Below, piece by piece: positions 14,340-63,029 of a stretch of 64,000 nt of DNA. This stretch comes from Lumbricus rubellus (taxonomy: Eukaryota > Annelida > Clitellata > Crassiclitellata > Lumbricidae). Made by a program: the position numbers and the translations under genes. Location: assembly GCA_945859605.1 (NCBI GenBank), contig OX243825.1, positions 4,379,291 through 4,443,290 on the forward strand. Reading direction: 5' to 3'. Each line of letters opens with the position of its first letter. Within the stretch, counting starts at the first letter, position 1. The notes under the pieces were generated by a model. The model was given only the letters and a program-made list of their open reading frames with translations, ran no database searches and was not told where the DNA came from.

Positions 14340-14453
14340 CTAAGGCATTGACTTTTTCTTTGGCTTGGATTTCTGTCTTTCTTCAAGCGCCTCATATTCG
14401 TTGGCGTCTCTGTCTTCTCCCAAACTTGCGTAGGCTGCCTCGTGATCGAGAAC
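14340..14453 (-). CDS. Gene A exon 9: tail cassette T3 with stop
   Basis: The acceptor CTAG is followed by 37 residues beginning VLDHEAAYASLGEDRD, with a second motif NEYEALEE, then a basic KPKKKSMP end and TAG. Phase is 0. It is the terminal ITAM-like exon and aligns with the single tail exons of B and C. Confidence 0.85.
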   Translation of the reverse strand, partial: VLDHEAAYASLGEDRDANEYEALEERQKSKPKKKSMP

Positions 14454-17400
14454 CTAGAACAAAATGCAAAATATTTTTATGGTTCATCCTAGATTCACAC
14501 AATAAAGGCAGAAAATCATGCCACTAGGCTACTTTTTCTTTTTGCAGTCTAAATATCGTAGGCCTACGTGTTACATTGTGGATCATGGTCTTCACCTTTT
14601 CACTGACTTTCGATTTCTGTTTTTGTTCGAGCGACTCATATTCGCTGACGTCTCTGTCTTCTCCCAAACTTGCGTAGGCTGACTCCTGATCGAGAACCTA
14701 GAACATTATGCAGAATATTTGAATGGTTCAGCCCAGTGGCGGATCCAGAACTGTTCCAAGGGGGGGGGCAAAATCTTAGATCTTGAAATGGCACAGGGGG
14801 AAAAAATTTTGAGGCTGAGAAAAAAAGGACTTTTCATTCGCCAAAAAGTTGATGACCTTTTATTTAGTCATTGGTCTTTCGCTGAGGGAAAAAGTACTTT
14901 TTCATCTACCAAAAAGTTGATGACCCTTTTTTTAGTTCTCCACTTGAAAACCGAATGGGGGCCACGTCCCATACAATTTTCCGAATAGGGGGGGGGGCAA
15001 TATGTCACTACACCCATATTCGTATTGCTAATTTCAGACCAAATGGGGGGGGCACGCTCCAAGGCAGTTTTAAATGGGGATCCATGGCCGGATTTTCCCC
15101 TGGATCCGCCCCTGGTTCAGCCTCGATTTACACAAAAAATATAAGGCAGAAAATCATGTTACTAATTTTTGGTTATGCGCTCTAAATATCGCATGTGTAG
15201 ATTATAACCTTCACTTTTTCTCTGGCTTCTGTTTTCTGTCCTTGCTCGAGCGACGCATATTCGCTGATTTCTCTGTCTTCTCCTAGGCCTGCGTAGGTTG
15301 ATTCCTGTTCTCCAACCTATAGCAACCAGCATATTTAGCATTTAGATCTGCCTTGATTTGCGCAAATTAATTTTTTTATAATCAAGTTATGTCGCATATT
15401 TCTACATACATGTAATTATGCACACATTATGTACACCGGAGGCAAACAGAGAATTGAAGAATTAAAAGAGCAGCTCGTCTGAAGTGGAAGAAGCGCATTG
15501 TGCATGGAACACATTTTCTTAGCTTAGAAAGAGGGCGAGTGGCCTACCCTGGCCTTTCCTCTCGCTCAAACTTCGATCTTCGAAATTGCAATTTGTAGCA
15601 AGTGAACTCATTGTATAGGCCCTATGCGTCGGGCGCAGGTTGGACCAAGATCTAGAAACAAATAATGCTCTAGAGGGGCCTTTGACCCCTGGCATCACGT
15701 TTAATAATCCTTAGACGGAAACTCAAAACACGCATAAACAGACCGCGACCGGTTACAGTGTGTATTAAATTTTATGCAATGTAAACAACTCACAAGAACG
15801 CAAACTACAGAAGACATTCACGTAAATCATAACTACTAACCGTCTTAGACTATTAAGAGGCGCTCTCAGCCTAGTGGCCCGAGGAATCAAATAAACTGAT
15901 TAATTTTGCGCAGAAACTAGGCTATAATAGCGTAATGATTCCGCTAGCTCTGAGAGTTTTGTCGACGATCATGGGCGTTTTACGGTTTATCGCGCCAGAC
16001 ATAACGCCGCCCTAGAGTTATAATGCTTATCATAGCTTTTGGCGAAACCGAGAAAAACGACTTTAAAGTCTGGTCACTGTTTTAGGCCAAAAATTCTTAA
16101 TTTCATTGTTTTGCAGTATAATTCTATCATTTTTAGATTCCTGCCAGTGACTTGTTTTGTAAAAGATATATTTTGTTGAACAAAAGTAAAAAATATAGAA
16201 AAATTTAAGAAAATGCAAAAATATATGTTACAGCAAAACGTTTCGATCAGACATAGTAAATTTAACCACGTAAAGTAATACACGAAGTATTTATTCTAAT
16301 CGCGTCTTCAGTATTATATTGCTCTATCATACACTGCGAGTATGCTTTTCCTCTAACTCAGCGTAATAGTTTCGCCTATGATGATGATAGAGCATTTATA
16401 CCCTGACATTTTTTATTCAGTGAAACTTTGCTCTGTCATAGTCAAAAGCAGCCTTGTGATTGGCTGCCGACGAGTAATGATAGAGCATTATAACCCTAAG
16501 AAAGTCTAGATTGGAAACAGTTTCGCAAGATAGAGCATTTAAATACTGACTTATAACTAAGAAACGACCGCTTCAATCATCTAGCTCTTTTGTCTAATGA
16601 TAGAGCAAATGCTACACTGAAGAAATTGATGCCAAACTCGATTTTTTCAAAAATTCATGATAGAGCATTATAACTCTCAGGCGGCGATAAGCCTGGCTTG
16701 ATATTATAATATATAGTTTATATACATATAAATGCATAAATATACATAATATTTACATGTTATAGTCAAACAGTGTATTTTCTAAAGACCCTAATCGATA
16801 GCGAATCAACTAATTAGCCTACTTACTGGTGGAGCTCCTGCCCTATGATTAGACCGATCCACAGCTGAGTGTTTGAGAGACGACGGACTCATCTCATGAT
16901 CATCATGCCGGACAACGCCATCTACCAAACAGAAAACTATGCCTTCATTATCTCTTATGGCAATCCTATTACGTATTGCTTCGAGGTTCCTTTGAAATAT
17001 TTACATGTCATTAAGCTTCTGTAGCCTACATTATATACAATATTAATTATTATTTAGACGTGAAAGTTAAAGGGCCTGTTCAACGTCTAGTCTACTTAGA
17101 ACCGCTTCCGGTTCAACCATGGCTAAACAGGACAGTATATTATGTATTATCCTATATAGGTAGCCTACTAGAATATTTATTTTCCGAAATTAAGATAATA
17201 TACATGTAAAGTATGAAATTTTTTATATTAATAAAGGAATAAAATATGAAATTCCAAATATGCAGCAACTGAATCTTCAAATAGGCTATACGAAATCCAG
17301 AACCTGCTTTGCAGATCTACACCGTGAGGCATAAAAAAGGAAGCCCCTAAACAATTCGTTACTATTTTAACAATTTTCAAACAATGTCAATAAAATTCAG

Positions 17401-20400
17401 GAAAATTATAGCTAAGTAGCAAGAAATGTAAAAAAATAAAAGTTTTTACAATTTACTGTCCGCCTTTAGTTTCTACGCATGCGCGAAGTCGCTTGCGCCA
17501 TTCACGCGCCGCCGAGTCAATAATTCGCAGGTTAAGATCGTTCCAAGCTTGCATCATTCGCTTACGAAGATCATCAACATCACGGACCTTTATTTTGTAC
17601 ACCATTTCCTGCATGCACCCCTATATTTTATAATTGACAGGATTCAGGTCTGTGCTGTTAGGGGGCCGTAATGTAGGAATTGTGAAGTCAGGAGTTGCAT
17701 TCGTCAGAACTGCAACCGTTTCTCGCAACTCTGTGTGCTGGAAACCATCTTGCAGGGAAAGGTAAAATTCAGAGAGGTCTCTAATTTCAGGTATGCCTTC
17801 CATGAATAAAACGTCTCTGTATGCCTAGTATTGGTCTTTGATTTTTACTCCCGGTTCAACAAAGTGAATTGACGTGCGCCCCCAGAAAAGAAACATCGAC
17901 CGACACCATCAGAGATTTGCTAAACGTCTGACGTGTGCGTAAAAGGCGGTCGGCTGCAATATCTCTCTTTAGATTTCCAACTGCTACATTTTGAGTATTG
18001 CTACGAGAAGCAACTGTGAATAATTTTTCGTCCGTGAACCAGATGAACAGTGGCGGCGCTACGGGAGGTCGCGGCAGGTCATTTGACCTGCCTATTTTGC
18101 TCACGACCTGCCTAATGACCTGCCTAAAAAAATTTGGATTTTTTAATGTATCTTACATTCTTTTATTTAAGAGTTTTAGCTTAAATGAAAAATCATCATT
18201 AATGTTTTCCTCGCCCAAAAGATCACTAGTGTTGTGGTGCAATTATTATATCCAACTGACTTTTACGCCTGATCTTATCTAGTAGGTAAATAGGCCTAGA
18301 GGCAGGGCTGTTTTAAAGGAATTTTTAGAACTGCACAACTCCATCTTTCCTTTCCCATTCTTCATTGTAAATTACTTCCAATCGGAGAACTATGACCCTT
18401 TTTGCTAGTTTTAACTGTACAGAAGTGCTTCTATACGACTGCACATTTTGTGTAGCCTACAACTGCACGTTAAAAAAGCCATGCCTAGAGGTCTAAGCCT
18501 ATGGGATATGAGGTTTATTGGAAACCTATAATTACGGTATATGAATCAAACAGAAAGGATAAGAATAGGAAGGGAGTCTCAGAGGAAGAAAAATCGAGAC
18601 AGATGATGCTTGGATGGATGATGACTGACGGATACAACGAACGGAAGAGAAAACACAGCGAAGAGAAGAATGGCGTCATTGGAAGTTGAAACCAGTACTG
18701 CCGAGGGGTAGAGAACTTAAAGAATAGAAGAGGGTCTATGTGCACTTCAAATTCAATCATCAATTTCTTCGACCTGCCAAATAGTTCTCATGACCCCGAT
18801 GCGACCTGCCGAAATTTTAGAGCTGGCGCCGCCACTGCAGATGAATTGCACTAGGCAGGCTGGGTAGCGACGCAACAAAAGGCGACTGCAAGCTTGAAAC
18901 GATCTTGAACAGCGAATTATTGACTCGGCGGTGCGTGAGTGGCGCAAGCGACTTCGCGCATGCGTAGAAGCTAAAGGCGGAGAGTAAATTTTAAAAACTT
19001 TAATTTTTTTACATTGCTTGCTACTTAGCTATAATTTTCCTAAATTTCATTGACATTGTTTGACAATTGTTGAAATAATAACGACTTGCTTAGGGGCTTC
19101 CTTTTTTATGCCTCACGGTGTATATTCCGCATGGCAATGCCGTTATGCAATAAGGCATCGGTATGCCGGATTTATAGCCTATCTCACTCCTCTGCTTCAG
19201 TAGAATGTTTGTGTTTGACCCCATGCAGGTCTATTACCAGTAGCTGAACATAGATGAAGCTTCAGGTACTTATGTCGGACCAAAATGGTGTGGACGCGAA
19301 AGGATGGCAACAATAAATCAGATTCCAACAACAATTCCAAATCCGATGCCAACTCCAGTGTGAATTCGATATCACCAGCCATAAATTATGGTTGTATGAG
19401 AATTTATACAATATTGAAAGTGTTATAACGACTCGAATTTATTCCAAACAACTGTAATAATGTAAATGGAAAGTAACCTTTGTCTCCTGAACGGCGCCAC
19501 TTGTAGCAAGGACAGCATGGAACGAAACAGCAGATGACAATGATGAGAAGAAGGATGACAGTGCTAACACCAACACCAACCGCAGTAGGTAAGGAGGAAA
19601 GAGAATTCCTTGGCGTGGTGCTTACATCTGTAAAACTACCAAGTGTTATCTTCTGACACAGCATACAACAGAAAGGAAATCAAGCATGCGATATTATTGC
19701 TTATCTTCAATACAAAACGATGTGAAAAATCTCTTCTTACTTCTCAAACCCAATGATACTTTAATTCGGCTGATTTGGACCCACGTCAAGTGCTGCACCC
19801 CTCCAATATGGAAACTGGTTGTTATCCGCCCCTATCTCATACGGCACCGAACCTTTAGGCCTACGATCGTTGAGTAGCTGTACGCCACCTGGAATGGGTT
19901 CTCATTTGAGCTGCAGTTACTCCCACGGAGTTTTTATACCTATGTTAAAGACGTGGCTTGAAACTAACAGCTCCCTCTTAATTGAATCAGTCTTACATTC
20001 CTCGGGGCAGCTGCGGGCGCCTAACAGGCTGCCAAGATGTGTGTTCAAGAAGATTATGAAATTTGTTGCATCATTTTTCAATGTTCCTTACAGCGATTTG
20101 TCAGTGTGCTTGTCAACAAACATGAATGTCATAAAAAGCATATTGACATTTACACACTCGCGTTGGTTTATGGTAAGAAAATATTTTTTAACAGAATAAT
20201 ACGATAAATAATAGCCTACCTTGAAAATGAACAGAATCGAAACTCGTATAGAACACCGTGGCATCAACAGTAGTTAGAGTACTTTCAGTACCTTAAGTTA
20301 ATAAAAGACAGAATCCCATAGCAAATCACTTAAAATTTCTACCTCTAACCTACAGCCCAATGTAACAATAACATTCCAACTGAAATAATTATATTATTCA

Positions 20401-23400
20401 CTAACTCTCCCAGTACCTTGACTTACCAAATGTTACCACACCCGACGTTACCTAACTTTCCCCTACCCTAGCTTATTTTCCATCGCATTGTCTCAAACTA
20501 TAATATTGTTCCTAGGTGTGGCATTCTCTAGAGAACGTTGTATCTAGGTACGATATGCTCTACACGTAGAGTACAAAAGTACATCGTGCCTAGGTAATGT
20601 TAACTCTGAAGCGCGTAAAGAGCATAACAGTAACATTAATAAAATCTGCAACAATTGCAATTTTTATCGTGCAATGTACACAGTCATGTACCGCTACAGA
20701 AGCAACACATTGTGCGAACTACGATGATGCTGATAATCATGTAAGTCATTCAAATTGCAATAATTAGGCTATATCTCTGTGGTTGGAGTGGTAGACTATG
20801 GCATTCGCACAACTAGCTAAAAGAAACTGAAGTAAGCAGAAACTGAAAACCAGAGGCTTAACTATACCTGTGTTGTTAACTTGGAACTCGATTGAAGTTG
20901 CATTGTGGTTCTTGTTCCTCACGACATTCATTGCAAGACATCTGTACTTCTTGGAAGAAACATCAGCCATAGTAAATTGATTGCCATTCTGATTCTGAAT
21001 ATCCATCCAAAAGCCATTGTCTGCGTTTTCCTGCCATTTGAAATTTGGTGATGGATTTCCCTTTGCTGCACAGGTGATGATGGTTCCAGGAGGATAATTA
21101 GAATACAATGGTGACAAAGCAACATCCCTAACTGAATCTGAAACAGATGTTTTGATAAGGTTGTAATTAAAGGGAAAATTTATTTGGCGCGAAATCTAAG
21201 AGACTAAGATCGTTCTCATCTAAATACGCGAAACCACAATATTACAGTCTGATCTGTAGGCACTTGTGGAGCAGATACAGATAGTCTAATCTGAGGAGTC
21301 TGAAGTCTCGGACCTTGCAATTTATCCCAAAAGGATGAATCGACCACAGCATCACTTCCATGTTAAACAGTGAATTTGCAGGTTTGTGAAAGAACCAGTC
21401 ACCTTGCGCAAGATCTATCATGAGCGAGACGATAGTGCGATTTAGGTGGAAAATACAATGCACACACTTATGAACTCATTCTGATCCATTTTAAACTGTG
21501 ACCTAACATGAATTTTGCTACATCAGTCAGAATGTGAATAGTTCAGCAATTACAGTGAATATCTGTATAATACAAGGAAATGAACATTCCCACTGCATTT
21601 TAAGACAATGAAGCAATAATTACTTACAGAGGACTTTGATGGCAGATGTCGCACAGTTGGCATTTGAAACGTTGTTTGTAGCCAACCCTGCAATAATTAT
21701 TCGTTCTCTATAGTAATTGCCATCATACATTTCCAAGGCAAACGAAGTTTCACAAGTGAATGATGGAACCTCCGGATTGGAAGCCACAACAGAGTAAGAA
21801 AGACTTATGGTGTTTCCAACTTTTACAGCATCCGGATCATCTGCCACTCCTTTCCAGTTCATCGATGCATTATTCGTTCCAAGGTATGTCACTTCACATT
21901 TCAACTGCACTCCATCTCCTTCAGCAGTGTTATCCACAGACGTATTAATCGTACACTTGGGCTGTGTCTCTACAATGACAAGTCATGATAAATTGAATTA
22001 AAATCTCAAGACGCCCTAATTGAACTCTTTTGTAATCATGAATCCCAGCTCGTACGGTTTTAGGAAACCTAAATTTCATAATGCTGTGCTTGTAGCACGT
22101 AGACTATAAGTAATTAAGTATAATAGATCTAAGTAGACCTACTCTTATAAGGGCACCATGCGGTCACATTCAACGGAGAGTAAATCTGTTCTTTGAATGA
22201 TTTAGTCGCGTATTCCAGCTATTCAATTCTTTAAACAGCCGTTGTAATGACTATTAGGAATAATGGTCTCAAAAGATGAATAGGCTGCGGTTCAAACCCC
22301 GGGTTGGGAGTTGACATTCAGAGACTTAGATATCTCGGGTTAGCACGTGTGAGACGTATTCCAGCTATTCAATTCTTTAAACAGCCGTTGTAATGACTAT
22401 TAGGAATAATGGTCTCAAAAGATGAATAGGCCTGTAATACTGGAAGATTAACATTACCTAATTAGCAACAACGGGAAGCGAGAGCGGCAACGTCTCATGG
22501 TTACAATGGACTGCGGTTCAAACCCCGGGTTGGGAGTTGACATTCAGAGATTTAGATATATCGGGCTAGCACGTGTGAGACGCAGGGGCGCACGCTGCTG
22601 CGGAGCGACCTTGGGCAAGTTTCTTACCCATCATTGTCTGTGGGGAAGGCAACGGGAAACCATCTCACTCATCTCATCCCCAGGTGGCGCAAGCCATAGA
22701 CCTGCCTTCGGGCAGAGAACCATCATCATCACAGACAAATAAGCATTCGTACATCCATTCATGCATGCATTGACACCTAGGCTACATATATACATACAGT
22801 CATGCCAACATAGGTACAAATATATTTGCATGCAAATAAACAATTACACAATACACATTATTATTTAGACTCATTTGAAATATGAAATAAGTTTACATAA
22901 ATTATTATTCACAAATGAACATTAGGCCTATTATAGACTATAATAGTCCATGTATGCAGAGGCATAAACTTAAGCATGAAAATGAACCTACATACATGTA
23001 GAAGCATGCATACTGCATAGGCTAATACATGGAAATTAATTATAAGACCGGTTGAACAGAAAATTTTGAATTTTTTAAATACTCAAAACGGTTACCACAG
23101 ACTCATTTGAAATAACAAACGACTTACCTAGTATAATGAGATAGGCAGCTTTTATAACTTGATTCGAATTCATAATAGCTGAGCACATGAATCGTCCGGC
23201 GTCTGTCAGTTGAACGTTTCTAATAACCAAATCACATCCAGATGAATTGTCGACGCTGTATCGAGCTTTATCAACGACAGTGACGTTCAGCATTGTTCTT
23301 GGTCCTTTGAAGATAGTAATCGGACTTGCACCTGGTATATATTTCTGCCAGTCAGTTCCGCTACAGTTTCTAGATGGAGATGAGCATTTCAAGGTAACAG

Positions 23401-25073
23401 TTGAACCAACAACGCTCAACGTGTTCACTGGTCCTTCCAATTGACTTTCTTGTGCACCTAAAGGTAAGAGATGAGTCAGATATTGTGGCATAATGTGAAA
23501 TAAAATATGTTTCAATGCCAAGTTTGTGATGAAACATATGGATATGATATGCTACATGTAGATTTCGACTGAAATTTGACTGGTCTTTCCAAGGCCGCAG
23601 GTGGGGGTGTTTTGGGTGTTTGAACAGTACACCCCAACAATGTCGGGAAAACACCCCCTAAATAAAATCCTGGCTACGGCCTTTGGGTCTATCGCTTCTC
23701 TCAACTGGTATTAAATTGACTGTTTGCTAATAATCCACTTCTGAGGTGGTTACACTGGTCTATGCATTAGTGGAGGTGGCAAGATGACCCAAGGTTCGCC
23801 TAGCTCCTCTGCAATCTGTACTCAATGCTGCCGCTAGGCTCATTGCCCGCCTTCCTCGATTCTCCCACATTTCTTCATTCATGACTGAAAAACTTCACTG
23901 GCTTCCATTCTCGACCCGTATACAATTTAAGGTCCTAATTTTGGTCATCAAGTCTCAAATGGGTCTTGCTCCGAAGTATCTGTGTGATCAGATACTTCGG
24001 CCCCCCTTTCTGCCACTTCGCTGCGTCCTCTTAGGTCCTCTGATCGGCTTGACCTCTTTGTCCCGCGAGTCAGGACCGCCATGGCGCAATCCAGATCATT
24101 TGCCTGCATTGGAATGGGCTTCCCCCATCAGTTCGCTCTGCCATCCTCTCTGGTAGTGTATTCTTATCTTTCTCTCGTCTAAAAACTTGCCTTTTTTCTC
24201 GGAGATGAACGCACTGGGAGCGCTTCTGAAAGGCTCTTGCTGCAAGAAGCGCTTTATAATTATTGTCAGATAAGATAGGATAAGATAATTGTACTTGTAA
24301 AATACATGTAGCCTACAAATTTCTAAATTGGAACTGTAATGCATAGTGCGGGACACCAGTTTGATTAACTGCAGCGTCGCATCAAATATGATTAAGCTTA
24401 TTATTTGACTTTTTGTCATAATTATAGACAAAATAGGGAAGGTAACGATTAATTACAATAGTAGAATTTTAGAATAGATAAGTTGATGAATGAGTTTCTA
24501 AGTATGATATTGATTTAAATTGGCCTATATCAGATTTTATATGTACACGTAGGCTATAGCCTAACTGTTTAGTTAAAATTAAAATAATAATTGTGTCAAA
24601 ACTTCAACTTGAGCTCCGTGAAGCAGCAACTGAAATCATATAAGATAAGAAAAGAATATTCTTTAATATACCAATATTGCTACCTGCATTTTGGTGTACA
24701 ATGTTGTACATACATGTACATGGTATAATAAACAAACGTAGGCCTAGATAATTTAAAACTTTGCGAATAGGCCTAATATTCTCACAGCCGCCAACTGGTA
24801 AACCCTCAAGTCGGACATGTTTCTAAGCTATCGACTACCATCACCTCTTCCCACTCAATGCACCAGCAGGAAGACACAAGTCTTTATACATTAACGGAAG
24901 GTGTGGAGCAAACTCGCAACTTTCTAGGCCTGTCCTTTGAATCCTTTTCACATATTTTCGTACTACGGTTTGTCAGATTGTTTCCGGTAAAAAAACAGTG
25001 AACGAATGATCGATACCGTAATGTACTTGCCTGCAACAGTAATGAGGATGGCAATAACAAGGAAATCCATCAT
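14340..25073 (-). CDS. Receptor gene A: three Ig domains, TM and three ITAM-like cassettes
   Basis: Nine exons join in frame into 515 residues: signal peptide (1-14), Ig1 (15-124), Ig2 (125-238), Ig3 (239-328), transmembrane exon (329-378), linker (379-410) and three tail cassettes (411-444, 445-478, 479-515). Each cassette fits D/E-x-x-Y-x-x-L-x8-Y-x-x-L, with tyrosines at 418/430, 452/464 and 486/498. In vertebrates, paired tyrosines of this kind are phosphorylated by Src kinases and bind Syk/ZAP-70 SH2 domains. I infer a cell-surface activating receptor; the ligand is unknown. Ig1 has the DAGRFMC pattern of V-type folds. The Ig exons are phase 1-1. It differs from B and C in its transmembrane exon and in its tail number. 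Confidence 0.8.
14596..14697 (-). CDS. Gene A exon 8: tail cassette T2
   Basis: The exon is 102 nt and phase 0-0, with acceptor CTAG and donor AAAAG|GTGAAG. It encodes VLDQESAYASLGEDRD and SEYESLEQ. Skipping or including it keeps the frame, so the ITAM number could vary by splicing. Confidence 0.75.
14734..15114. mobile_element. hAT-like MITE, 381 bp, between tail exons T1 and T2
   Basis: CAGTGGCGGATCCAG at the left and CTGGATCCGCCCCTG at the right form an inverted terminal repeat. The 8-bp duplication GTTCAGCC flanks it at 14726-14733 and 15115-15122. G-rich runs and a repeated AAAAAGTTGATGACC lie inside. Confidence 0.85.
15215..15316 (-). CDS. Gene A exon 7: tail cassette T1
   Basis: The exon is 102 nt and phase 0-0, with acceptor CTATAG and donor GAAAAA|GTGAAG. 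It encodes VGEQESTYAGLGEDRE and SEYASLEQ. The intron sequences after T1 and T2 resemble each other (around AAGGCAGAAAATCATG on the plus strand), so the cassettes arose by tandem duplication with their introns. Confidence 0.75.
16005..16690. repeat. Cluster of TGATAGAGCA motifs with inverted ends
   Basis: TGATAGAGCA, often followed by TTATAACCCT, recurs in direct or inverted orientation at about 16320, 16384, 16430, 16476, 16528, 16597 and 16660. The outer parts, CCTAGAGTTATAATGC near 16012 and GCATTATAACTCTCAGG near 16666, are inverted. The element type is unknown. The rest of 15320-16826 is intron without recognised features. Confidence 0.65.
16827..16921 (-). CDS. Gene A exon 6: cytoplasmic linker
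   Basis: It encodes 32 residues beginning DGVVRHDDHEMSPSS and ending AGAPP, phase 1 to 0, between GGTAG and CCA|GTAAGT. The HEMS block is conserved in B and C. Confidence 0.8.
18048..18837. mobile_element. hAT-like element nested in the mariner copy
   Basis: CAGTGGCGGCGCTAC at the left and GGCGCCGCCACTG at the right are inverted. CAGATGAA is duplicated at 18040-18047 and 18838-18845. Its insertion splits the mariner transposase frame. Confidence 0.85.
18303..18483. mobile_element. Small hAT-like MITE nested in the hAT-like element
   Basis: It belongs to the same family as 13966-14174, in the opposite orientation. It is flanked by CCTAGAGG at 18295-18302 and 18484-18491. It is the innermost of three nested insertions. 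Confidence 0.8.
19238..19390 (-). pseudogene. Relic of the B/C-type transmembrane exon in gene A
   Basis: On the minus strand GGAGTTGGCATCGGATTTGG, TTTATTGTTGCCATCCTT and AAGTACCTGAAGCTTCAT align with the gene B transmembrane exon (29989-30159). An in-frame stop, a deletion in the hydrophobic part and the altered donor GTAATA make it unusable. Gene A uses the exon at 19478-19627 instead. Confidence 0.75.
19478..19627 (-). CDS. Gene A exon 5: transmembrane segment
   Basis: It encodes 50 residues, DVSTTPRNS..., then a hydrophobic run (VGVGVSTVILLLIIVICCFV) and a Cys-rich juxtamembrane CCPCYKWRR. It is phase 1-1. The donor AAAG|GTTACT is weak, so the exon end is less sure than the others. The STT start is shared with gene B, but the membrane span is different in sequence. 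Confidence 0.65.
19680..20860. other. Intron between Ig3 and TM exons of gene A
   Basis: No gene is recognised. From about 20220 to 20860 the intron aligns by eye with gene B intron 30840-31620 (shared CAACAGTAGTTAGAGTAC and GCAACACATTGTGCG), showing that A and B are close relatives. Short CTAGGTACGAT-like repeats lie at 20510-20600. Confidence 0.5.
20868..21137 (-). CDS. Gene A exon 4: Ig domain 3
   Basis: The exon is 270 nt, phase 1-1. It has TIITCAAKGNPSPNFKWQ (Cys and Trp of the core) and SSKKYRCLAMNVV (second Cys, Y-x-C pattern). It resembles I-set or C2-type domains. The donor is ACACAG|GTATAG. Confidence 0.85.
21628..21969 (-). CDS. Gene A exon 3: Ig domain 2
   Basis: The exon is 342 nt, phase 1-1. 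It begins ETQPKC, with QLKCEVTY, MNWKG, PSFTCETSF and NANC. The outer Cys pair (PKC and NANC) is present in all three genes and probably makes an additional disulfide. Confidence 0.85.
22212..22430. repeat. Tandem duplication of intron and SINE piece
   Basis: About 74 bases starting TATTCCAGCTATTCAATTC appear at 22212 and again at 22357. The first copy is followed by a SINE fragment (GGTTCAAACCCCGGGTTGGG) at about 22292-22356. Confidence 0.8.
22452..22733 (+). repeat. tRNA-derived SINE, copy 2
   Basis: It shows the same order as the copy at 1480-1762: GGGAAGCGAGAGCGGC, GGTTCAAACCCC, GCGACCTTGGGCAAG, GGCAACGGGAAACC and a CATCATCATC end. Confidence 0.75.
23128..23457 (-). CDS. Gene A exon 2: Ig domain 1
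   Basis: The exon is 330 nt, phase 1-1. It reads GAQESQLEGP, VTLKCSSPSRNCSGTDWQK, SVDNSSGCDLVIRNVQ and TDAGRFMCSA. The D-x-G-x-[FY]-x-C pattern is that of V-type Ig folds. Four cysteines are conserved in A, B and C. Confidence 0.9.
23740..24262 (+). pseudogene. LINE reverse transcriptase C-terminal fragment in gene A intron 1
   Basis: The plus strand reads LQSVLNAAARLIARLPRFSH, LHWLPFSTRIQFKVLIL and GLAPKYLCD, then loses frame. It is a 5'-truncated LINE copy, antisense to gene A. Confidence 0.75.
25031..25073 (-). CDS. Gene A exon 1: signal peptide with GC donor
   Basis: ATG ATG opens MMDFLVIAILITVA, a short hydrophobic signal peptide. The exon ends GCAG|GCAAGT, a GC-type donor conserved in B and C, in phase 1 with the Ig1 acceptor. 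Confidence 0.8.
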
Positions 25074-26859: not shown

Positions 26860-26973
26860 CTAAGGCCTTGACTTCGTCTTCGGCTTGACTTTCTGTCTTT
26901 GTTCGAGCGACGCGTATTCGTTATCGTCTCTGTCTTCTCCCAAACTTGCGTACGTTGAATCTTTCTCACAAAC
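26860..26973 (-). CDS. Gene B exon 7: ITAM-like tail with stop
   Basis: The exon has 38 codons, phase 0, starting VCEKDSTYASLGEDRD, then NEYASLEQRQK and a basic end before TAG. The acceptor is TATAG. Confidence 0.85.
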   Translation of the reverse strand, partial: VCEKDSTYASLGEDRDDNEYASLEQRQKVKPKTKSRP

Positions 26974-54000: not shown

Positions 54001-54478
54001 TCCTCCGCCGCCTTCACCCACAAAACCTACAAGTCGGTGTCCGTCGCCAAGCTATCGACTGCTGTCACCTTTCTCCAATTAGGAGTAAGCTGCATCAACA
54101 ATAGGAGATGAGCAAAGTCATTTGCAAGGCCCGTGTCTGAGAGTGCAGCATTGTTTGTAGAGATGTCCAAGAATATTGCTACATTCACTTTGATGTTATG
54201 CATTGGGAGGATAGCTTTGCGTTGATTGGATTTTTTATTATAGGTATTTGAAAAGTCATTGCGAATTGGACTACATGTATGATTACGAATAATTTCAAAC
54301 TAATTTGCGCGACCTCATTCCAGTCTGAGAATGTCCTTTGAACCCACATAATCTGCAGACTGCACGTTACATATGGAGGCTAATGCTGTGTTTTGGCCAA
54401 AAGTGAATGAATGATTATGATGATGACTGTACTTGCCTGTAAATGTAAGGAGGATGGCTATAACGAAAAGTTCCATCA
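26860..54478 (-). CDS. Receptor gene B: three Ig domains, TM and one ITAM-like tail
   Basis: Seven exons (1335 nt) join in frame into 444 residues: signal peptide (1-14), Ig1 (15-122), Ig2 (123-233), Ig3 (234-323), transmembrane exon (324-380), linker (381-407) and tail (408-444) with tyrosines 415 and 427 in D-x-x-Y-x-x-L-x8-Y-x-x-L. It is the same architecture as C and, apart from the tail number, as A. The gene covers 27.6 kb because its introns have taken in at least two LINEs, a Tc1/mariner element, an LTR element inside a larger DNA element, MITEs and microsatellites. The Ig3 donor has been altered by a LINE insertion. All reading frames are intact, so the gene is probably functional, though expression could be affected. 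Confidence 0.75.
27212..29265. mobile_element. hAT-like element, about 2.05 kb, in gene B intron
   Basis: TAGACCTGGGAGT at the left is inverted at the right end (ACTCCCAGGTCTA). TTGAAAAA is duplicated at 27204-27211 and 29266-29273. Subterminal regions (27225-27360 and 29105-29255) are full of GTCGACTT and ACTTGAAGTCG words. No transposase is recognised. Confidence 0.8.
27382..28034 (-). pseudogene. LINE reverse transcriptase C-terminal fragment nested in the hAT-like element
   Basis: The minus strand reads CRTCFYHLRQIRSVRRSL, TRVDYGSAIYAGL, LQSVLNAAARLIGGIPKF, LHWLPMQKRIEFKILML and WNKLPISLRN. Its 3' end has a TACAATTACAATT-like tail at about 27382. It is 5'-truncated; the catalytic core is absent. 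Confidence 0.85.
29363..29442 (-). CDS. Gene B exon 6: cytoplasmic linker
   Basis: It encodes 27 residues from DGVVRHHGHEMSSAA to RTGTAL, phase 1 to 0, with donor TTA|GTAAGT. It is five residues shorter than in A and C. Confidence 0.8.
29989..30159 (-). CDS. Gene B exon 5: transmembrane segment
   Basis: It encodes 57 residues, DDFSTTMISSS..., with a glycine-rich start (GVGLGIGIG) and a long hydrophobic run ending in LVRNKYLELHPNPAA. The donor is GCTG|GTAAGA. The acceptor (CCAAAG) has a poor pyrimidine tract, so the start is less sure. Confidence 0.7.
30190..31610. other. Gene B intron between Ig3 and TM exons
   Basis: It holds no recognised gene. Parts align with gene A intron 20220-20860. 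CTAGGTACGATGTA-type short repeats lie at 31090-31220. Confidence 0.5.
31621..32179. mobile_element. MITE, 559 bp, in gene B intron
   Basis: CATACCTGGGAACGGCGGTC begins a perfect inverted repeat of about 29 bp at both ends. AAGAAACGG is duplicated at 31612-31620 and 32180-32188. Gene A has the empty site near 20816. The middle holds GAAGCTGGATGAAG repeats like those at 1985-2300. Confidence 0.85.
32223..32878 (+). mobile_element. 5'-truncated LINE inserted at the gene B Ig3 splice donor
   Basis: The plus strand encodes broken polymerase C-terminal sequence (HWLKIPERIHFKVLSLTYN-like; PRLWNDLPVEFRS) and ends in an ACGATT repeat. TTACC is duplicated at 32218-32222 and 32879-32883. The insertion lies four bases inside the intron after Ig3. 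Confidence 0.8.
32883..33152 (-). CDS. Gene B exon 4: Ig domain 3
   Basis: The exon is 270 nt, phase 1-1. It reads TVITCVAKGHPSPTFKWQE and SSKRYRCVAMNVV. The donor is now ACAG|GTAATC; before the LINE insertion it was probably GTAAGT, as the displaced sequence at 32213-32222 shows. Confidence 0.8.
33959..34291 (-). CDS. Gene B exon 3: Ig domain 2
   Basis: The exon is 333 nt, phase 1-1. It has ETQPEC, VQLKCDVAYNG, MIWKGV, PSFICEASF and NAICS. The acceptor is GATTGTAG and the donor TTCT|GTAAGT. The intron on its low side (33153-33958) holds a short hairpin at 33355-33385 and otherwise nothing recognised. Confidence 0.85.
35240..35540 (-). pseudogene. Short LINE 3' fragment
   Basis: It shares its 3' region (TTTATATAGCGCC, CTCAGAGGCGCTCCCG) with the LINE at 27382-28034. 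Only broken polymerase tail remains. The 34310-35239 stretch before it has no recognised feature. Confidence 0.65.
35847..39340 (-). mobile_element. LINE with ORF1 and broken ORF2 in gene B intron
   Basis: On the minus strand there is an ORF1-like frame (38712 to about 39340: LVIHGLPQSS, ISFAHRIPNKNKGAPRP, SIYINEHLT). Next come a Cys-rich PHD-like stretch (38099-38323) and an endonuclease start (37708-38046: LSIVHINCRSLLSK, ALSETWID). The polymerase follows with AFDTVSHDILL, GVPQGSNLGP (37076-37480) and FADDTNVF (36797-37030). Frameshifts separate the parts, so it is dead. The 3' end carries ATCAA repeats (35850). Confidence 0.85.
39451..40858. mobile_element. Tc1/mariner-like element, 1.4 kb, next to the LINE
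   Basis: CAGGGTGGCTGAAAAAATG at the left and its inverted partner at the right extend as terminal repeats of about 190 bp, flanked by TA. The interior has broken transposase-like sequence only. Confidence 0.85.
41110..42690 (-). mobile_element. 5'-truncated LINE with intact polymerase C-terminal half
   Basis: From the 42690 end, one frame reads AFDTVDHSILLKKLKGYG, GVPQGSILGPLLFLLYVND, FADDTNAFLND (catalytic Asp pair) and HIHWRLSTKD, and ends LKLYLPEE at 41609. About 500 bases of 3' sequence follow. It is related to the LINE at 35847-39340. Its 5' end lies within 100 bases of the gene B Ig1 exon, and fingers, thumb and endonuclease parts are missing. Confidence 0.85.
42786..43109 (-). CDS. 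Gene B exon 2: Ig domain 1
   Basis: The exon is 324 nt, phase 1-1. It reads GAQESQLEGPDNTLSIVGS, KCSSPSRNCYGIDWQKY and TDAGRFICSAI. The acceptor is TTCTAG and the donor TTAG|GTAGGT. It is two codons shorter than in A and C, between the WQKY and RYSVD blocks. Confidence 0.9.
43665..43815 (-). repeat. Second type of tRNA-derived SINE
   Basis: On the minus strand the A-box-like GGTGGTGAAGCGGTAAGTTC and B-box-like GGGTCGCAGGTTAAGCC are followed by GCGACCTTGAACAAGTTGCT and GGCAACGGGAAACC. The head differs from the SINE at 1480-1762, but the central part is shared. Confidence 0.65.
44733..45330. repeat. Facing (TACA)n and (TGTA)n microsatellites
   Basis: About 240 bases of ACAT repeats (to 44972) are followed after 25 bases by about 330 bases of TGTA repeats. 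The two runs are reverse complements and could fold into one long hairpin. All MYVC- and IHTY-rich frames here are artefacts. Confidence 0.95.
45340..47655. other. Interior of the large element, no recognised gene
   Basis: Only short open frames exist. The one feature is the GGGGCGGAGGCACCCAAAAG stretch at 46255, which is inverted near 52990. Confidence 0.45.
47657..48024 (-). repeat. Truncated 3' LTR
   Basis: It matches 51735-52102 closely (for example GGCCGCCGCATGCAACACGC). The portion corresponding to 51187-51734 is absent. Confidence 0.85.
48648..49531 (-). pseudogene. Pol remnant of the LTR retrotransposon
   Basis: After one in-frame stop at 49532-49534 the frame continues (SDDPVRLTPDQCLGDGLI) and then shifts to LLLEYRDVFSV. 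A further frame has PVRQPLGRNSMHHRTLID and RGFYMVYRQ. These match the stretch before and at the start of a gypsy-type reverse transcriptase. The rest is unrelated or scrambled. Confidence 0.65.
49532..51127 (-). CDS. Gag and protease-like frame of the LTR retrotransposon
   Basis: The frame of 531 codons opens MEEDDEVTGACAAG. It has a capsid-type region (PPPMKPGNFDGTGSLESFL, LRERYGTEGQAESFR), a CCHC zinc knuckle (CYNCKRAGHIARECRQ, about residue 340) and an aspartic-protease-like part near the end (ILGMDWLGEH). The active-site triplet reads VTG instead of the usual DTG or DSG, so protease activity is probably lost. It ends in a stop that interrupts the protease-pol connection. GC content is clearly higher than the surroundings, as expected for an inserted element. 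Confidence 0.8.
   Translation of the reverse strand: MEEDDEVTGACAAGGYAALRTSVSTPLADESAMVEDRTDRRRLIEELRTDERRPMRTSFRDRSDEQETSLKVLETAGGLPWKRPPPMKPGNFDGTGSLESFLVQFEVCARHNQWTAADRVYYLRCSLEKAATQLLWDFGARRDVGYEELVERLRERYGTEGQAESFRVQLYYRRQRSEETLSDLLHDIRRLVVLAYPVPSNETTEIIAKDAFLEALRDRDLSLKVREREPKNLDEAYRTALRLDAYQRTNDSDDRRGPSNRVRGTQETDVSTQIQSTLDRFHETQRDDQRRWQKEMERRIDQQFQELRGRAPTDDDSGRNVRPGNSGANDQDRSRRGVTCYNCKRAGHIARECRQPRRPFDRRNDAETTGTEEPSNPVAMNHTTRSRLPNRASSNAIYIRGTINGRQQMCLIVTGSEVTLIPATTVQGLALQSCSRFLITANFTSNNVLGEVRLPLKVRDGFGVSTRFVVSDQITEPILGMDWLGEHRCRLGFRNGALFLGRRRIPLVRGNGSMWCHRVMLAEEVVVPPKS
51187..52102 (-). repeat. 5' LTR
   Basis: About 916 bp long, with TG at its start and CA at its end (next to the PBS-like sequence). 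It contains degenerate internal repeats around GCCGTGCACAAAGAGAAAGC at 51590-51735 and a CACACA run. Confidence 0.7.
52110..54430. other. Right end of the large element and the start of gene B intron 1
   Basis: A broken LINE-like 3' piece may lie at about 52290-52450 (TTGGGAGCGCCTCTGAGTAG on the plus strand). The GGGGCAAAAGTGTCAG region at 52880-53000 belongs to the inverted pair described for the large element. No gene is seen. Confidence 0.4.
54436..54478 (-). CDS. Gene B exon 1: signal peptide with GC donor
   Basis: It encodes MMELFVIAILLTFT and ends ACAG|GCAAGT, phase 1. It is separated from Ig1 by 11.3 kb of intron filled with repeats. Confidence 0.75.
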
Positions 54479-54734
54479 TCTGAGAATTCGAATTAATATG
54501 ACTTCCCGTAGCATACAACACTGACAACTAGTTAGTCAAAAGTAATTTAACGCACCAAACTACTTAGGAAAGTCGAGCAATAAAATCATAAGTTGACTCC
54601 AAATTAATCGTATTTTGACGGTATTCAGTTTCATGTGTTTAAGCTTACTCAATAACCTAGGCTTACAGATGTTCACAGGTTCAGTTTCCACGACATCAAA
54701 ATCATAGCGTACTACGAGTCTACGAGTAGGCCTA

Positions 54735-55643: not shown

Positions 55644-55779
55644 GCACTGTCCAACATAGGATTCCGATTTTGAACCAACAACGTCAGTAATAAGAAGAAT
55701 GATAGGGTTAAAACTTTTGTCATGCTAGGTCACATTTATTCATCATCATGGGCTCTAGACCCTCATTACTACTTACATG

Positions 55780-56491: not shown

Positions 56492-56497
56492 TTTATT
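56492..56497 (-). terminator. Polyadenylation signal of gene C
   Basis: AATAAA on the minus strand about 195 bases beyond the stop codon of gene C. Confidence 0.4.
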
Positions 56498-56690
56498 TAA
56501 ATGTATTATTTATAATGTCAAACAAAATACAGTAAAAATAGATCACCTTCTTTCCATAAAAGGACGTTACAGACGGAAATTGGGGCAGAATTATCACTCG
56601 CGAGATAATTAGGCTAATTAAGCATTTGCTATCATGTCAGTTAGCACTTCTTTGTACAGCATAGAGTCTCAAGTGCGTTACATATTCTGA

Positions 56691-56804
56691 CTAAGGCCTC
56701 GACATTTTCGTTGGCTTGACTTTCTGTCTTTGTTCAAGCGACGCATATTCATTCGCATCTCGATCTTCCCCTAAACTCGCATAGGCTGACTCTTCTTCCC
56801 CAGG
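56691..56804 (-). CDS. Gene C exon 7: ITAM-like tail with stop
   Basis: The exon has 38 codons after acceptor ATTACAG, starting PGEEESAYASLGEDRD, then NEYASLEQRQK and KPTKMSRP before TAG. Confidence 0.85.
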   Translation of the reverse strand, partial: PGEEESAYASLGEDRDANEYASLEQRQKVKPTKMSRP

Positions 56805-57573: not shown

Positions 57574-57606
<33 letters not shown>

Positions 57607-57626
57607 TCATCACCAGCACCATCTCG

Positions 57627-57662
<36 letters not shown>

Positions 57663-59100
57663 ACAACATCATCATCATCATCATCATTATCAGCAGCATC
57701 AGCATCAACAACAACATCATCATCATAATCAGAGGGCAAAAAAAATCGAGTTAGGGACAGCATTGTGTGATTCTATTCAGCAATAAATCAGCTAAGATCT
57801 CACCAATGGAGCTCCTGTCCTAGGAATCGACCGATTCATAGCAGATAGTTGATGAGAAGAAGAACTCATCTCATGATCCGGATGCTGAACAATGTCAGCT
57901 ATCAAAGAGGAAACGATATGAATGCAAAAACTATGTGGCTGTAGAAACTATAAAATTATGACTGAAAATGATCCACAACTTGTCACCCGTGGCGCTCTTC
58001 TATTGCGCCATGTTTTGAGTCTCTGTCGAGAAACCTACACCGTATGCTTTTGCACGTTCATTAAAATATGCCTTTTATTTAGGCCTACTATAATTGTTTA
58101 TGCTAAGACTATGAATGTATAGAATACAAGATAAAAGAAACAAATATTAGTCATAGGCCTATACCGTATCCAGCGCGTTGGTCTTATTATACTAATATAC
58201 AACAGCATATTTAGCAGATCATTAATCTGTTACAGTAGCCCATCGAAGAATGATGTGTGAGATAGACATGCGATTAGACTCTATATATATATCCCGAGAT
58301 CAGTCATTAAGACTGTGTAGATCTCTTACCTAGTGACTTATCAGCTGGTCTTGGATGAAACTCCAAGTATCTGCATCTGACTAAGATGGCAACGGCAACG
58401 ATCGCTAATAGGATGGTGACGAGAATTCCAATTCCAAAGCCAATGTAACATTTTGAGGCAGCTTGCCCAGTCGAAGCCAAGTTATCATTGAATTCTAAAT
58501 CATAAATAGCATTTATACGTTCTTGTAGTTTTCCCAACATATTTTAATAAGTAAGTAAATTGCAAAGAACCAGCATCTGTCTCGAATTCAGAAATTCCTA
58601 CCATTGTGCAACCGATCCTCCATCTTTCAAACATTCTTCTCTTCAACGAAATTCTATCTGGTCTCTGAGATTTCTAGTGGATATCAATCCTTGACAAGAA
58701 GAACTCAACGTTCGCAAATACGTTATTACTCATCAGAGTCATCACTCAAGTTTAGAGTAGCGCTTTACAACAGTACTGGTGACTATAATTATGACTGCGA
58801 ATACTGTCGCTTCTGTACATGATTAATAAGCTTATATAATATTATTACTGATGAAGCATAATTGGTTAAAATTTGTTAAAAGCTGCTGCAGTTCAATGTT
58901 TTGTAGGCCCGAATAGATGGCAGCTAAATTTAGGAGGTGGGTATGAATCTTGCAGCATGTTCCGCATACCACACGCATCCTTCACTTCATCGTGCTCATT
59001 TTTCATAATTTGACTTTTGGTTTCGCTGACTAAATAATTGTTCTTGACTTGGCTTTCTGATGGCTTCTGGCTGATGACGTCTTGTACCTTGATGATGATG

Positions 59101-59162
<62 letters not shown>

Positions 59163-61970
59163 AGTTCTCTGCCCGTAGGCAGGTTCTATGGCTTTTGCCA
59201 CCCGGGGATGATGGGTAAGCAACTTGTCCAAGGCCGCTCCGCAGCAGCTTGCGCCCCTGCGTCCCACACGTGCTAGCCGTAGCCTAGCCCGAGATATCTA
59301 AATCTCTGAATGTCAACTCCCAGCCCGGGGCTTGAACCGCAGTCCATTGTAACCTACAGACGTATGCCGCTCTCGCTTACCGGTCTAGCTAACTAGGCTA
59401 GTTCTTGTACCTTACGATAGCCGAATTATTGAAGTCGTTATGTTGGATTGCAATGTATTTACAAATATATAAACTTTGTGAACTACGACCATGCAATGTA
59501 AGTCTCGAGCGCCTATGAGTAGTTTCCTTATAAATTTCAGAATGAATGTAAGTGACAAATTGCTGCATTTGTGAATTTGATTTTATTGACTACTGGCTGA
59601 CACACAGTTTTGAGTGTCACCAAGATTGCAGAATCTTTTTTATGTTGCATTAAATTGAAATGCGCAAGTCCTAAAGTACCTGCGTATGATGTATGAGGTT
59701 CAAATGAATTGCGCACAAATCTCAAGTCTCACAATTCGCCCAACCTGCAGAAGGCCAATTCGCTGAGGCAGATAGTCTATTGTATCTTTGAGACCACAGT
59801 GTAAATTGGAACATCATAATTATGATCATATTGGTGTAACATTGTTCCAGTAGGTCTCCGTGTTCGAATGAGACAACTACTGCGAAATTCAAACACTCTA
59901 CATGTACCTTCGTTCAGAATTGAAATCTGGTGAATATGTAGGCCTACCGATAAGAGAAAACAAGGAAATGGGGCCAACCTGTGCTATTAATTTGGATCTC
60001 ATGCGAAGTTTCGTTGTAGCTTCTACGTCTGACATTATTCATTGCAACACATCTGTACCGCTCGGAAGAATGATAAGGTGTAGTAAATTGACTGCCATTC
60101 TTATTCTGAATATCCGTCCAAGCGCAATTTCTGTTTTCCTTTTCCTGCCATTTAAAAGTGGGCGATAGGTGTCCTTTTGCCGCGCAGGTAACGATGGTTC
60201 CAGGAGGATAATTAGAAAGCGATGGTGACAAGGTGACATCTCTGACTGAATCTTAAACAAATTTTTAGACAAGAATCGTAACCCGATTTAAATTTTATAT
60301 AGATACTCATCAAGATACTCCTAATCTGAACGTTCAAAGCAGCATATGTTGATTATGCAAGTCACGTGAAACAGAGGCAGAGAAAATCAAAGGATCTTGA
60401 TGTGGCACGCGGCTAAAATACACGTAACCTGTTCTGGAAAGACTACAGCAGCACTTCTATGTTAAGCCTAGCTATAATAGGCCTATTGCAAAAACAGAAA
60501 TCGAAGTAGGGTCTAGGAAAACCATAGTTTAATTTAGCTCTTTTTAAAATATAGCGCAAATGGTAGGTCCTAACTATAGAACTACTCTGAGGGCTATTGA
60601 TAATCCGAAAGAAAGAAGACCTGCTGACGAAATGCTTGTGAGCTGGGGAAACAATAAGCTCAACGATCAGCTTGCTCTGATTAATAAGTGATAAAATAAG
60701 TTCTTCATAAATATGTGTGTTGAACATCTGCTGAAAATAAAGATAAATTAAACATCTCACTAGATTTTAACATTTTGAAAAGAAATACTTACAGAGGACT
60801 GTGATGGAAGATGTTGAACATTTGGCATTTTGAATTTTGTTTGAAGCCATGCCTACAATTGGCGCTCCCCCACTTTCTGTTTCAAATGCAAACGAAGTTT
60901 CACAAGTGAATGATGGAACCTCAGGGGCAGAAGCTTCAACAGAGTAAGACCGACTGATAGTGTTCTCAGTTTTCACAGCAGCCGGAGCATCTGTCACTCC
61001 TTTCCAAACCATCGATACATTATTCGTTCCATTGTATGTAACTTCACATTTCAACTGCACTCCATCTCCTTCGACCGTGTCATACATAGAAACATTTAAT
61101 GTACATTTGGGCTGAGTGTCTGCAATCACACATCATAATATTATGAAATAAATAAAATATCCAGACATTCTTGTAAAAAACAACCGCAATCATGAATCCC
61201 AACAGCCAGGTTTCAGAAGATGTTTTTATTTCTTCATTAAATGATAATTTTTTTAGAAATACAAGAAACTGAGTGAATATAATTTATTGCAGAGGCAAAT
61301 GTTCTCAACTGGGCTTGAAAACGTATCTAGAAGCTCTTACAAATGACTTAGATTCTTGGTTATACGAATTTGTGGTTAATAATTAGATACTGTGTTGGTC
61401 AGCAGATGCCATTAATTGTTTTTAGAGAAACGACTAGTCTCATGATAAAGTCTTACTGGCGCAATTGAAGAATTTCGTTAGCGGGGAAATAAATGACGTA
61501 TTTTGTGCAATTTTTTTAACAGTTACGACGTAGCTTAATAACCTTGCCGCAGAGTGTGATATAATAAACATAATCTCTTGAAAGGTGACATCTGTGCACA
61601 GCAATGATTGCTTAACATTTTGGTGTAAATTAATAGATCTATATGATATCATTGAAATTGGACCTTTGCCATGCTAACAAAGTTTGGGAACGTTTTTATG
61701 GGCCACCCGGTATATATATATTATATAATATTATTTATTATATATAATATTATATATTATAATATTATAGTATTATTATATATTATAAGACCGAGGAAGC
61801 GTTGGATGGATGATGTCTGTCACTGGACCGGACTATCACCTGTGGACTGTGCCAGACGGGCGAAGGACAGAGAGGGATGGAGGAAGCTACTGTCTTTGCC
61901 TCTGGTCTCCGACCCTCAGGAATGAGGATGGACGGCATCATCATCATCATCATCATTGTCGTCGTCGTCG

Positions 61971-62011
<41 letters not shown>

Positions 62012-63029
62012 GTCGTCTTCATCATCATCATCATCATCTTCATCATCATCATACATATTTATATATAATTATATATAGGCTATATACATGTACGTACCTG
62101 CACCGTACAGAAATATGCATACACCTATACATCCATATACGCCTTCGAATGTTTATCATGACACTTAAGCTCTCCAAAAATATTGGAATTGTTTGAAAAA
62201 AATCACTTCCTCAGAAAACTATTGGAAAAGCAAATTACTTACCTAATATGATAAGATAAGCAGTTTTTGTATGTTGACTTGATGAAATAATAGCTGAACA
62301 GATGAATCGTCCGGCGTCTGTCAGTTGAACGTTTCTAATAATCAAATCACATCCTGATGAATTGTCGACACTGTATCGATTTCTGTCAGTGACATTGGTG
62401 TTCAGAAATGTTCTTGGTCCTTTGAAAAAAATAATCGGAGATTTTCCATGTATATATTTCTGCCAATCAGTTCCGTTACAGCTTTTAGACGGAGACGAAC
62501 ATTTCAATGTGACAGTTGAACCAACAAAACTCAATGTGTTCTCGGGTCCCCTCAACTGACTTGCCTGTGGACCTAAAAGCAAGCGAAAATAACTCAGATG
62601 CCGAGTGCTGAGTATTATAATAGTATAGCTTGAAAGCACAAATGCTAATAATATTTTAGACAAGATTACGCTAACACAGGTAAAAATGATTTGCAGGATT
62701 TCGAGTGGAAATAGACTGAACAAATGAATCGTCCGGCGTTATGGCATTTTCGCACTTAAGAAGAAATTGACCATTTGACCTATCATTACAAACTAGGCCT
62801 ATTTCATTGTAAAATAGAAGATCTTCTAAAAGAGTGCTTTCGGTCCCTTCCGCATTTACTCTTTGTGTAGGCTATCTGAGACATATTATTTGTACACTGC
62901 ATGTTAAAGCAATACACAAAATTAAAGCACAGTAGGCCTATCAAATAACGAACAACTGAGTGATGATAGGCCTACGGTAGCCTACTTGCCTGTGAGAGTA
63001 AGGACGATGGCAATAAGGAGAAGTTCCAT
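56691..63029 (-). CDS. Receptor gene C: three Ig domains, TM and one ITAM-like tail
   Basis: Seven exons (1344 nt) join in frame into 447 residues: signal peptide (1-13), Ig1 (14-123), Ig2 (124-232), Ig3 (233-323), transmembrane exon (324-378), linker (379-410) and tail (411-447) with tyrosines 418 and 430 in E-x-x-Y-x-x-L-x8-Y-x-x-L. At 6.3 kb it is the most compact of the three and probably the nearest to the ancestral layout. It lies head to tail with B. The architecture predicts a single-pass surface receptor that signals through its own tail. No ligand can be read from the sequence. Confidence 0.8.
57468..57730. repeat. (CCA)n and (TCA)n microsatellite
   Basis: Runs of CCA with some CCC are followed by TCA/CAT runs and CAACAA. 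The poly-Pro, poly-Val and poly-Asp frames are artefacts. It lies in the intron between tail and linker of gene C. Confidence 0.95.
57804..57898 (-). CDS. Gene C exon 6: cytoplasmic linker
   Basis: It encodes 32 residues from ADIVQHPDHEMSSSS to RTGAPL, phase 1 to 0, with acceptor TGATAG and donor TTG|GTGAGA. Confidence 0.8.
58330..58494 (-). CDS. Gene C exon 5: transmembrane segment
   Basis: It encodes 55 residues, EFNDNLASTGQ..., with YIGFGIGILVTILLAIVAVA and LVRCRYLEFHPRPAD. It is closely related to the gene B exon. Acceptor GATTTAG, donor CTAG|GTAAGA, phase 1-1. Confidence 0.85.
59083..59402 (-). repeat. tRNA-derived SINE, copy 3
   Basis: It is the reverse orientation of the family at 1480-1762: the ATG/GAT microsatellite end is at 59092-59162 and the head (ACCGGTAAGCGAGAGCGGC) near 59385. 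It lies in the gene C intron between Ig3 and TM. Confidence 0.8.
59979..60251 (-). CDS. Gene C exon 4: Ig domain 3
   Basis: The exon is 273 nt, phase 1-1. It reads TIVTCAAKGHLSPTFKWQE and SSERYRCVAMNNV. The donor GCACAG|GTTGGC is weak but at the equivalent position to A and B. Confidence 0.8.
60793..61119 (-). CDS. Gene C exon 3: Ig domain 2
   Basis: The exon is 327 nt, phase 1-1. It has DTQPKCTLN, VQLKCEVTYNG, MVWKGV, PSFTCETSF and NAKC. The acceptor is GATTGCAG and the donor CTCT|GTAAGT. Confidence 0.85.
61717..62050. repeat. AT palindrome, LINE tail remnant and (CAT)n microsatellite
   Basis: TATATAATATT-type inverted AT runs lie at 61717-61787. They are followed by a LINE C-terminal remnant on the plus strand (RPRKRWMDDV...KDREGWRKL) to about 61930 and CAT/CGT repeats to 62050. 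All lie in the gene C intron between Ig1 and Ig2. Confidence 0.75.
62243..62572 (-). CDS. Gene C exon 2: Ig domain 1
   Basis: The exon is 330 nt, phase 1-1. It reads GPQASQLRGPENTLSFVGS, KCSSPSKSCNGTDWQKY and TDAGRFICSAI. The acceptor is CTTTTAG and the donor TTAG|GTAAGT. Confidence 0.9.
62990..63029 (-). CDS. Gene C exon 1: signal peptide with GC donor
   Basis: It encodes MELLLIAIVLTLT and ends ACAG|GCAAGT, phase 1, as in A and B. Confidence 0.8.

Follow-up and report, generated by a model that had tools for sequence, protein, structure and literature searches.

A tandem family of three Ig-type receptor genes predicted to carry whole-exon ITAMs in a single chain

Receptors that combine immunoglobulin (Ig) domains with an immunoreceptor tyrosine-based activation motif (ITAM) are a kind already known in invertebrates. 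The Alr genes of Hydractinia are clustered (PMC11067881, in part) and encode single-pass membrane proteins of the Ig superfamily, and passages of PMC12065747 place motifs of the ITAM type, or of the immunoreceptor tyrosine-based inhibition motif (ITIM) type, on Alr candidates. The same passages report a canonical ITIM and a hemITAM on a family of Ig-superfamily receptors, by our reading FcoR, at the fuhc histocompatibility locus of the invertebrate Botryllus. For the oyster Crassostrea, a section of the review PMC11999971 ascribes five extracellular Ig domains, a transmembrane (TM) segment and an ITAM to CgIgIT2, a 'BCR-like' receptor, although this statement may mix two proteins, since its reference list titles CgIgIT2 inhibitory. 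Among vertebrates, the clustered ITAM CEACAMs (CEACAM3 type) join Ig, TM and ITAM in one chain, and the part of PMC2110893 on dog CEACAMs describes ITAM exons exchanged in evolution, TM and cytoplasmic exons together. Here we describe three genes (A, B and C) on the minus strand of a 64,000-nucleotide stretch of contig OX243825.1 (the window), each modeled to encode Ig-type domains, a TM segment and at least one ITAM in a single chain. An earlier note on this DNA had held such clusters to be little described outside vertebrates, which the Hydractinia, Botryllus and Crassostrea reports contradict.

We looked for the motif D/E-x-x-Y-x-x-L-x8-Y-x-x-L in six frames and found it exactly five times in the window, all five in the modeled tail exons, where the earlier note had reported five matching cassettes. 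In first-order Markov resamplings of the window (n = 60), the mean was 0.03 and the maximum 1, and chance was rejected as the source of the strict form (5 observed versus 0.03 expected). A looser form with a spacing of 6 to 12 occurred 6 times, against a resampling mean of 0.77 and a maximum of 4, and is unconvincing alone; the strict form and homology carry the case. All five cassettes fit the consensus of ITAM receptors (D/E-x-x-Y-x-x-L/I-x6-8-Y-x-x-L/I), always with x8, and the motif lies on the cytoplasmic side of its own chain in the models of A, B and C and in a related protein, P0001, described below. Each of the five ITAMs is whole within one exon, which starts in phase 0, seven codons ahead of the first tyrosine.

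The genes lie head-to-tail in the order A, B, C and share one exon order: signal peptide, three Ig-type domains (D1, D2 and D3), TM and two kinds of cytoplasmic exon. Complete models without internal stops were assembled for gene A (63029-56691, minus strand, 447 amino acids [aa]), gene B (54479-26860, minus strand, 444 aa) and gene C (25073-14340, minus strand, 517 aa). Three complete models with one exon order and intact frames had been proposed before and were reproduced, and the outer coordinates then given, 14340 and 63029, coincide exactly with the ends of C and A. Independently of those earlier models, translated comparison of minus-strand open stretches among the three regions recovered a shared set of exons (signal peptide, D1, D2, D3, TM in A and B only, cytoplasmic exon 1 and ITAM exon). 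Intron phases were consistent at every junction (1-1 for Ig and TM exons, 1-0 for the first tail exon, and 0-stop or 0-0 for ITAM exons). Splice sites were picked by hand, guided by homology and phase, so that the dinucleotide counts (AG at 20/20 acceptors, GT at 17/20 donors) hold partly by construction; independent support for the predicted sites is their recurrence in three diverged copies. All three signal-peptide exons end in a GC donor in the context AG/GCAAGT; a GT donor a few bases downstream was dismissed because it had the wrong phase for D1, and the GC donor suits all three genes. The sequence AATAAA lies 194, 84 and 59 bases past the stops of A, B and C, respectively, distances for which no chance control was made. 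When all modeled exons were searched against the window (tblastn, E 0.01), no copy was found outside them. The exons are as follows.

62990..63029, minus: gene A signal-peptide exon, GC donor (comparison and model)
62243..62572, minus: gene A Ig domain 1 (V-set), phase 1-1 (Pfam V-set 1.5e-7)
60793..61119, minus: gene A Ig-like domain 2, phase 1-1 (homology and model; weak Pfam match, below cut-off)
59979..60251, minus: gene A Ig domain 3, phase 1-1 (homology and model)
58330..58494, minus: gene A TM exon, phase 1-1 (homology and model)
57804..57898, minus: gene A cytoplasmic exon 1, phase 1-0 (homologous in A, B and C)
56691..56804, minus: gene A ITAM exon, phase 0 to stop (strict motif, constraint, model)
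54437..54479, minus: gene B signal-peptide exon, GC donor (homologous to that of C)
42786..43109, minus: gene B Ig domain 1 (homology and model)
33959..34291, minus: gene B Ig-like domain 2 (homology and model)
32883..33152, minus: gene B Ig domain 3 (Pfam Ig_3 1.7e-6, just under the curated cut-off)
29989..30159, minus: gene B TM exon (homology and model)
29363..29442, minus: gene B cytoplasmic exon 1 (homology and model)
26860..26973, minus: gene B ITAM exon, phase 0 to stop (strict motif, constraint, model)
25031..25073, minus: gene C signal-peptide exon, GC donor (comparison and model)
23128..23457, minus: gene C Ig domain 1 (homology and model)
21628..21969, minus: gene C Ig-like domain 2 (homology and model)
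20868..21137, minus: gene C Ig domain 3 (homology and model)
19478..19627, minus: gene C TM exon as modeled (unmatched by the A and B TM exons in translated comparison)
19205..19360, minus: gene C decayed copy of an A/B-type TM exon, unused in the model (translated comparison)
16827..16921, minus: gene C cytoplasmic exon 1 (homology and model)
15209..15316, minus: gene C ITAM exon a, phase 0-0, with a second in-phase donor two codons earlier (strict motif, model)
14596..14697, minus: gene C ITAM exon b, phase 0-0 (strict motif, model)
14340..14453, minus: gene C ITAM exon c, phase 0 to stop (strict motif, model)

Between the paralogues, divergence is greater at silent sites than in the amino acid sequence, which indicates constraint. 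Across D1 to D3, the three gene pairs had synonymous divergence (dS) of 0.45 to 0.52 and nonsynonymous divergence (dN) of 0.20 to 0.22 (dN/dS = 0.42 to 0.48). The ratio was below 1 in every domain and highest in D2 (0.54, 0.63 and 0.82), where faster change could reflect relaxed constraint or a ligand site. For the ITAM exons of A and B, dS was 1.9 and dN 0.14 (ratio = 0.07), and the ten cassette pairs pooled gave proportions of synonymous and nonsynonymous differences (pS and pN) of 0.55 and 0.20. The gene models, the motif scan and the constraint thus support the earlier proposal of a tandem family with canonical ITAM spacing in which a single chain holds Ig, TM and ITAM.

Two relatives were found by protein searches over 5.77 billion proteins, in each of which scoring covered only the 7994 or 7995 candidates with the most words in common, so that little can be concluded from the lack of further ones. 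In one uninterrupted frame and in the domain order of A, B and C, P0001 (448 aa, encoded on a contig of 1749 bases; 34% identical to C across 70% of C; E = 3.9e-55) combines three homologous Ig-type domains with a TM segment and a tail with YASL-x9-YESL. Because this frame is unbroken where A, B and C have introns, P0001 most likely derives from spliced mRNA; an intronless copy is possible. P0002 (395 aa) matches P0001 at 48% and the ectodomain of C at 35%. A scan of viral contigs with P0001 gave no relative. The joining of tail exons to Ig and TM exons, on which the claim of the earlier note hinged, is therefore supported indirectly for the family through P0001, while in A, B and C these exons are joined in the gene models only.

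Profile searches backed the Ig assignment in part. D1 of A passed the Pfam V-set profile (32 bits; curated cut-off, 26), as did P0001 (28.7 bits), three stretches of which also match Ig_3; D3 of B scored just below the Ig_3 cut-off (28.8 versus 30 bits), and D2 of A was weak (15.7 bits). The D1 region of A, B and C has the usual V-set cysteine, tryptophan and DAGRFxC. D1 of A, B, C, P0001 and P0002 also has two invariant cysteines (C45 and C88 in A) in addition to the usual B-F pair, perhaps forming a second disulfide. The AlphaFold model of D2 was poor (pLDDT = 48). For P0001, the model (alignment A3, with D2 rows trimmed to their first 75 to 77 residues and D3 rows shortened by two end residues) had a mean pLDDT of 58 and was good for D3 and TM only; its PDB matches had low TM-scores and were set aside.

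Charged residues were absent from the 21-residue TM core of A, B, C, P0001 and P0002 alike. Activating receptors that couple to an adaptor carry a charged residue inside the TM segment, and uncharged cores are as expected if a charged adaptor is not needed. In gene C, the A/B-type TM exon, detected in the translated comparison and not by tblastn at E 0.01, is broken by an in-frame stop and a frame shift (read by eye), and the upstream segment 19627-19478 was therefore modeled as TM instead; of the C exons this one is the least secure, as neither A nor B yielded a homologue.

In gene C, ITAM exons a and b end in phase-0 donors and exon c holds the stop, so that C can encode one, two or three ITAMs with the frame kept. 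Exons b and c were the closest of the computable cassette pairs (dS = 0.24), and about 30 intron bases ahead of their acceptors are nearly identical by eye, which together we read as a tandem exon duplication.

Set beside the described systems, the cluster differs from each. A hemITAM has one tyrosine, whereas the cassettes here have two at x8; Alr domains are described as unusual, whereas D1 here has the usual V-set features (compared by description only). The oyster receptor has five Ig domains in the section of PMC11999971 cited above, versus three here. In dog CEACAMs, as stated in part of PMC2110893, a phase-0 intron typically interrupts the first YxxL, whereas all five cassettes here hold the whole ITAM in one exon, a difference that points to a separate origin. 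Our searches of open-licence papers turned up neither this family nor the multiplication of a whole-ITAM exon in an Ig gene of an invertebrate, a weak negative, as they were not aimed at exon duplication. The A/B/C cluster and its variable ITAM number look new.

We consider it probable that A, B and C are a tandem family of type I membrane receptors, each with its own ITAM, that act as single-chain activating receptors of immune type. In the cell type that would carry them, the Ig domains may bind a ligand and thereby cluster the receptor, a Src-family kinase would phosphorylate both tyrosines of YxxL-x8-YxxL, and the paired SH2 domains of a Syk-family kinase would dock on the phosphorylated ITAM, giving activating signaling with no adaptor chain. 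Vertebrate single-chain ITAM receptors such as FcgammaRIIA and CEACAM3 follow the same adaptor-free scheme. Gene C would have gained two extra copies of the ITAM exon, and phase 0-0 would let all of them join one tail; with up to three ITAMs, its signal would presumably be stronger or tunable by splicing. Passages of PMC5978004 report that Syk/Zap70 homologues whose SH2 domains bind ITAMs occur alongside CARD-CC/Bcl10 in invertebrates, so that a Syk-family kinase is a plausible partner of the A, B and C tails. PMC10253181 mentions invertebrate Syk homologues.

Several observations count against activating ITAM receptors of this kind. A, B and C are gene models drawn from the genomic sequence. 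Six of the ten YxxL motifs in the cassettes also fit the ITIM consensus (S/I/V/L at −2), and inhibitory signaling is thus possible; of the earlier claim of activating immune-type receptors, the single-chain ITAM part stands, and activation is what the motif would lead one to expect. Constraint on the cassettes is uneven: dN/dS could be computed for 7/10 pairs, the other three being saturated in dS, and apart from the A-B pair it ranged from 0.27 to 0.67. Some donors in gene C are weak (AAG/GTTACT at TM and AAG/GTTATA at ITAM exon a), so C may skip one or more of its three ITAM exons. The pair in P0001 is spaced x9 with no acid at −3, and in P0002, which keeps the ectodomain, the tail (about 34 residues) lacks YxxL; the ITAM is thus not universal in the family.

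Other explanations were weighed against this one. It seems rather unlikely that these are homophilic adhesion or allorecognition receptors like Hydractinia Alr, with a tail that reports self contact and not pathogen binding, a proposal that concerns the ligand and is compatible with the ITAM explanation of the tail. Clustered Ig receptors with ITAM/ITIM-type motifs are indeed reported, in the passages cited above, at the Hydractinia and Botryllus allorecognition loci, and many of the best PDB matches were adhesion molecules (Robo, NCAM2, contactins and CEA); such matches are, however, generic for Ig domains, pIgR and antibody chains being also among them, and dN/dS stayed below 1 even in D2. 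We find it unlikely that the same genes signal with opposite or mixed sign, their YxxL tyrosines acting as ITIMs or as an inhibitory ITAM that recruits SH2 phosphatases, in an inhibitory or paired set. Serine at −2 in six of the ten motifs agrees with the ITIM consensus as quoted in a passage of PMC5071834, P0002 has the ectodomain and no ITAM, as in paired receptor families, and CgIgIT2 is termed inhibitory in a title within the reference list of PMC11999971. The strict x8 double spacing and the acid at −3 in 5/5 cassettes argue against this reading, and cassette c of gene C fits the ITIM at neither tyrosine.

That the genes are relatives of hagfish NICIR and APAR, in a window from a jawless vertebrate, is very unlikely. 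Both molecules carry ITAMs, in favor of this explanation, and both have fewer than three Ig-type domains, which sets them apart by description only. They are named as Ig-superfamily molecules of jawless vertebrates in a passage of PMC5071834. We judge it more improbable still that the YxxL motifs are endocytic sorting signals (YxxPhi) only and not immune motifs. YxxL does fit the AP2 consensus; for sorting, though, one motif suffices, and here paired motifs keep a fixed distance in all five exons and almost do in P0001. Decaying pseudogenes, which the dead TM exon of C might suggest, are scarcely credible given that all three modeled frames are open and dN is well below dS.

We advance a further proposal only tentatively: a lineage-specific cluster that would set signal strength by copying a whole-ITAM phase-0 exon, would swap TM exons and, to judge by P0002, would also contain ITAM-less partners, making it a counterpart, of independent origin, to the paired receptor clusters of vertebrates. 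The number of ITAM exons is one in A and B, whereas C could use as many as three, perhaps through alternative splicing. Single-chain two-tyrosine ITAMs at the vertebrate spacing in a non-CEACAM exon layout would be a natural replicate of the origin of an immune signaling motif. Set against A and B, gene C would allow ITAM number to be tested directly as a control of signal strength in receptors other than the T-cell receptor, and the ITAM-less relative P0002 would make paired activation and inhibition testable in a lineage beyond Hydractinia and Botryllus.

The rest of the window suggests animal DNA, with long interspersed nuclear element (LINE) and Ty3-type sequences and microsatellites around the spliced Ig genes; it gave no tRNA (ARAGORN, bacterial code) and no Rfam match. 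Gene B is 27.6 kb long, and a Ty3-type long terminal repeat (LTR) element lies in its first intron (47658-52096), downstream of the signal-peptide exon at 54479-54437. Its LTR-like copies (47658-48018 and 51736-52096) are 97.8% alike, so the insertion is probably fairly young, and it holds a gag-like minus-strand open reading frame (ORF) with a zinc knuckle above cut-off and a protease match just below. Reverse-transcriptase or LINE-like fragments lie at 41609-42760, 36598-38127, 27432-28049 and 5059-5859, the first Pfam-confirmed and the others seen by eye; the first three are within gene B introns and help explain its length. At 6452-11252, a plus-strand ORF combines a repetitive N-terminal region with an OTU-like protease domain, and the ORF after it gave a weak match to tyrosine recombinases, below cut-off; this may be a Crypton-like element. 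The segment 9467-10075 is repeated at 12378-12986 (99.3%), directly before a run of 200 N.

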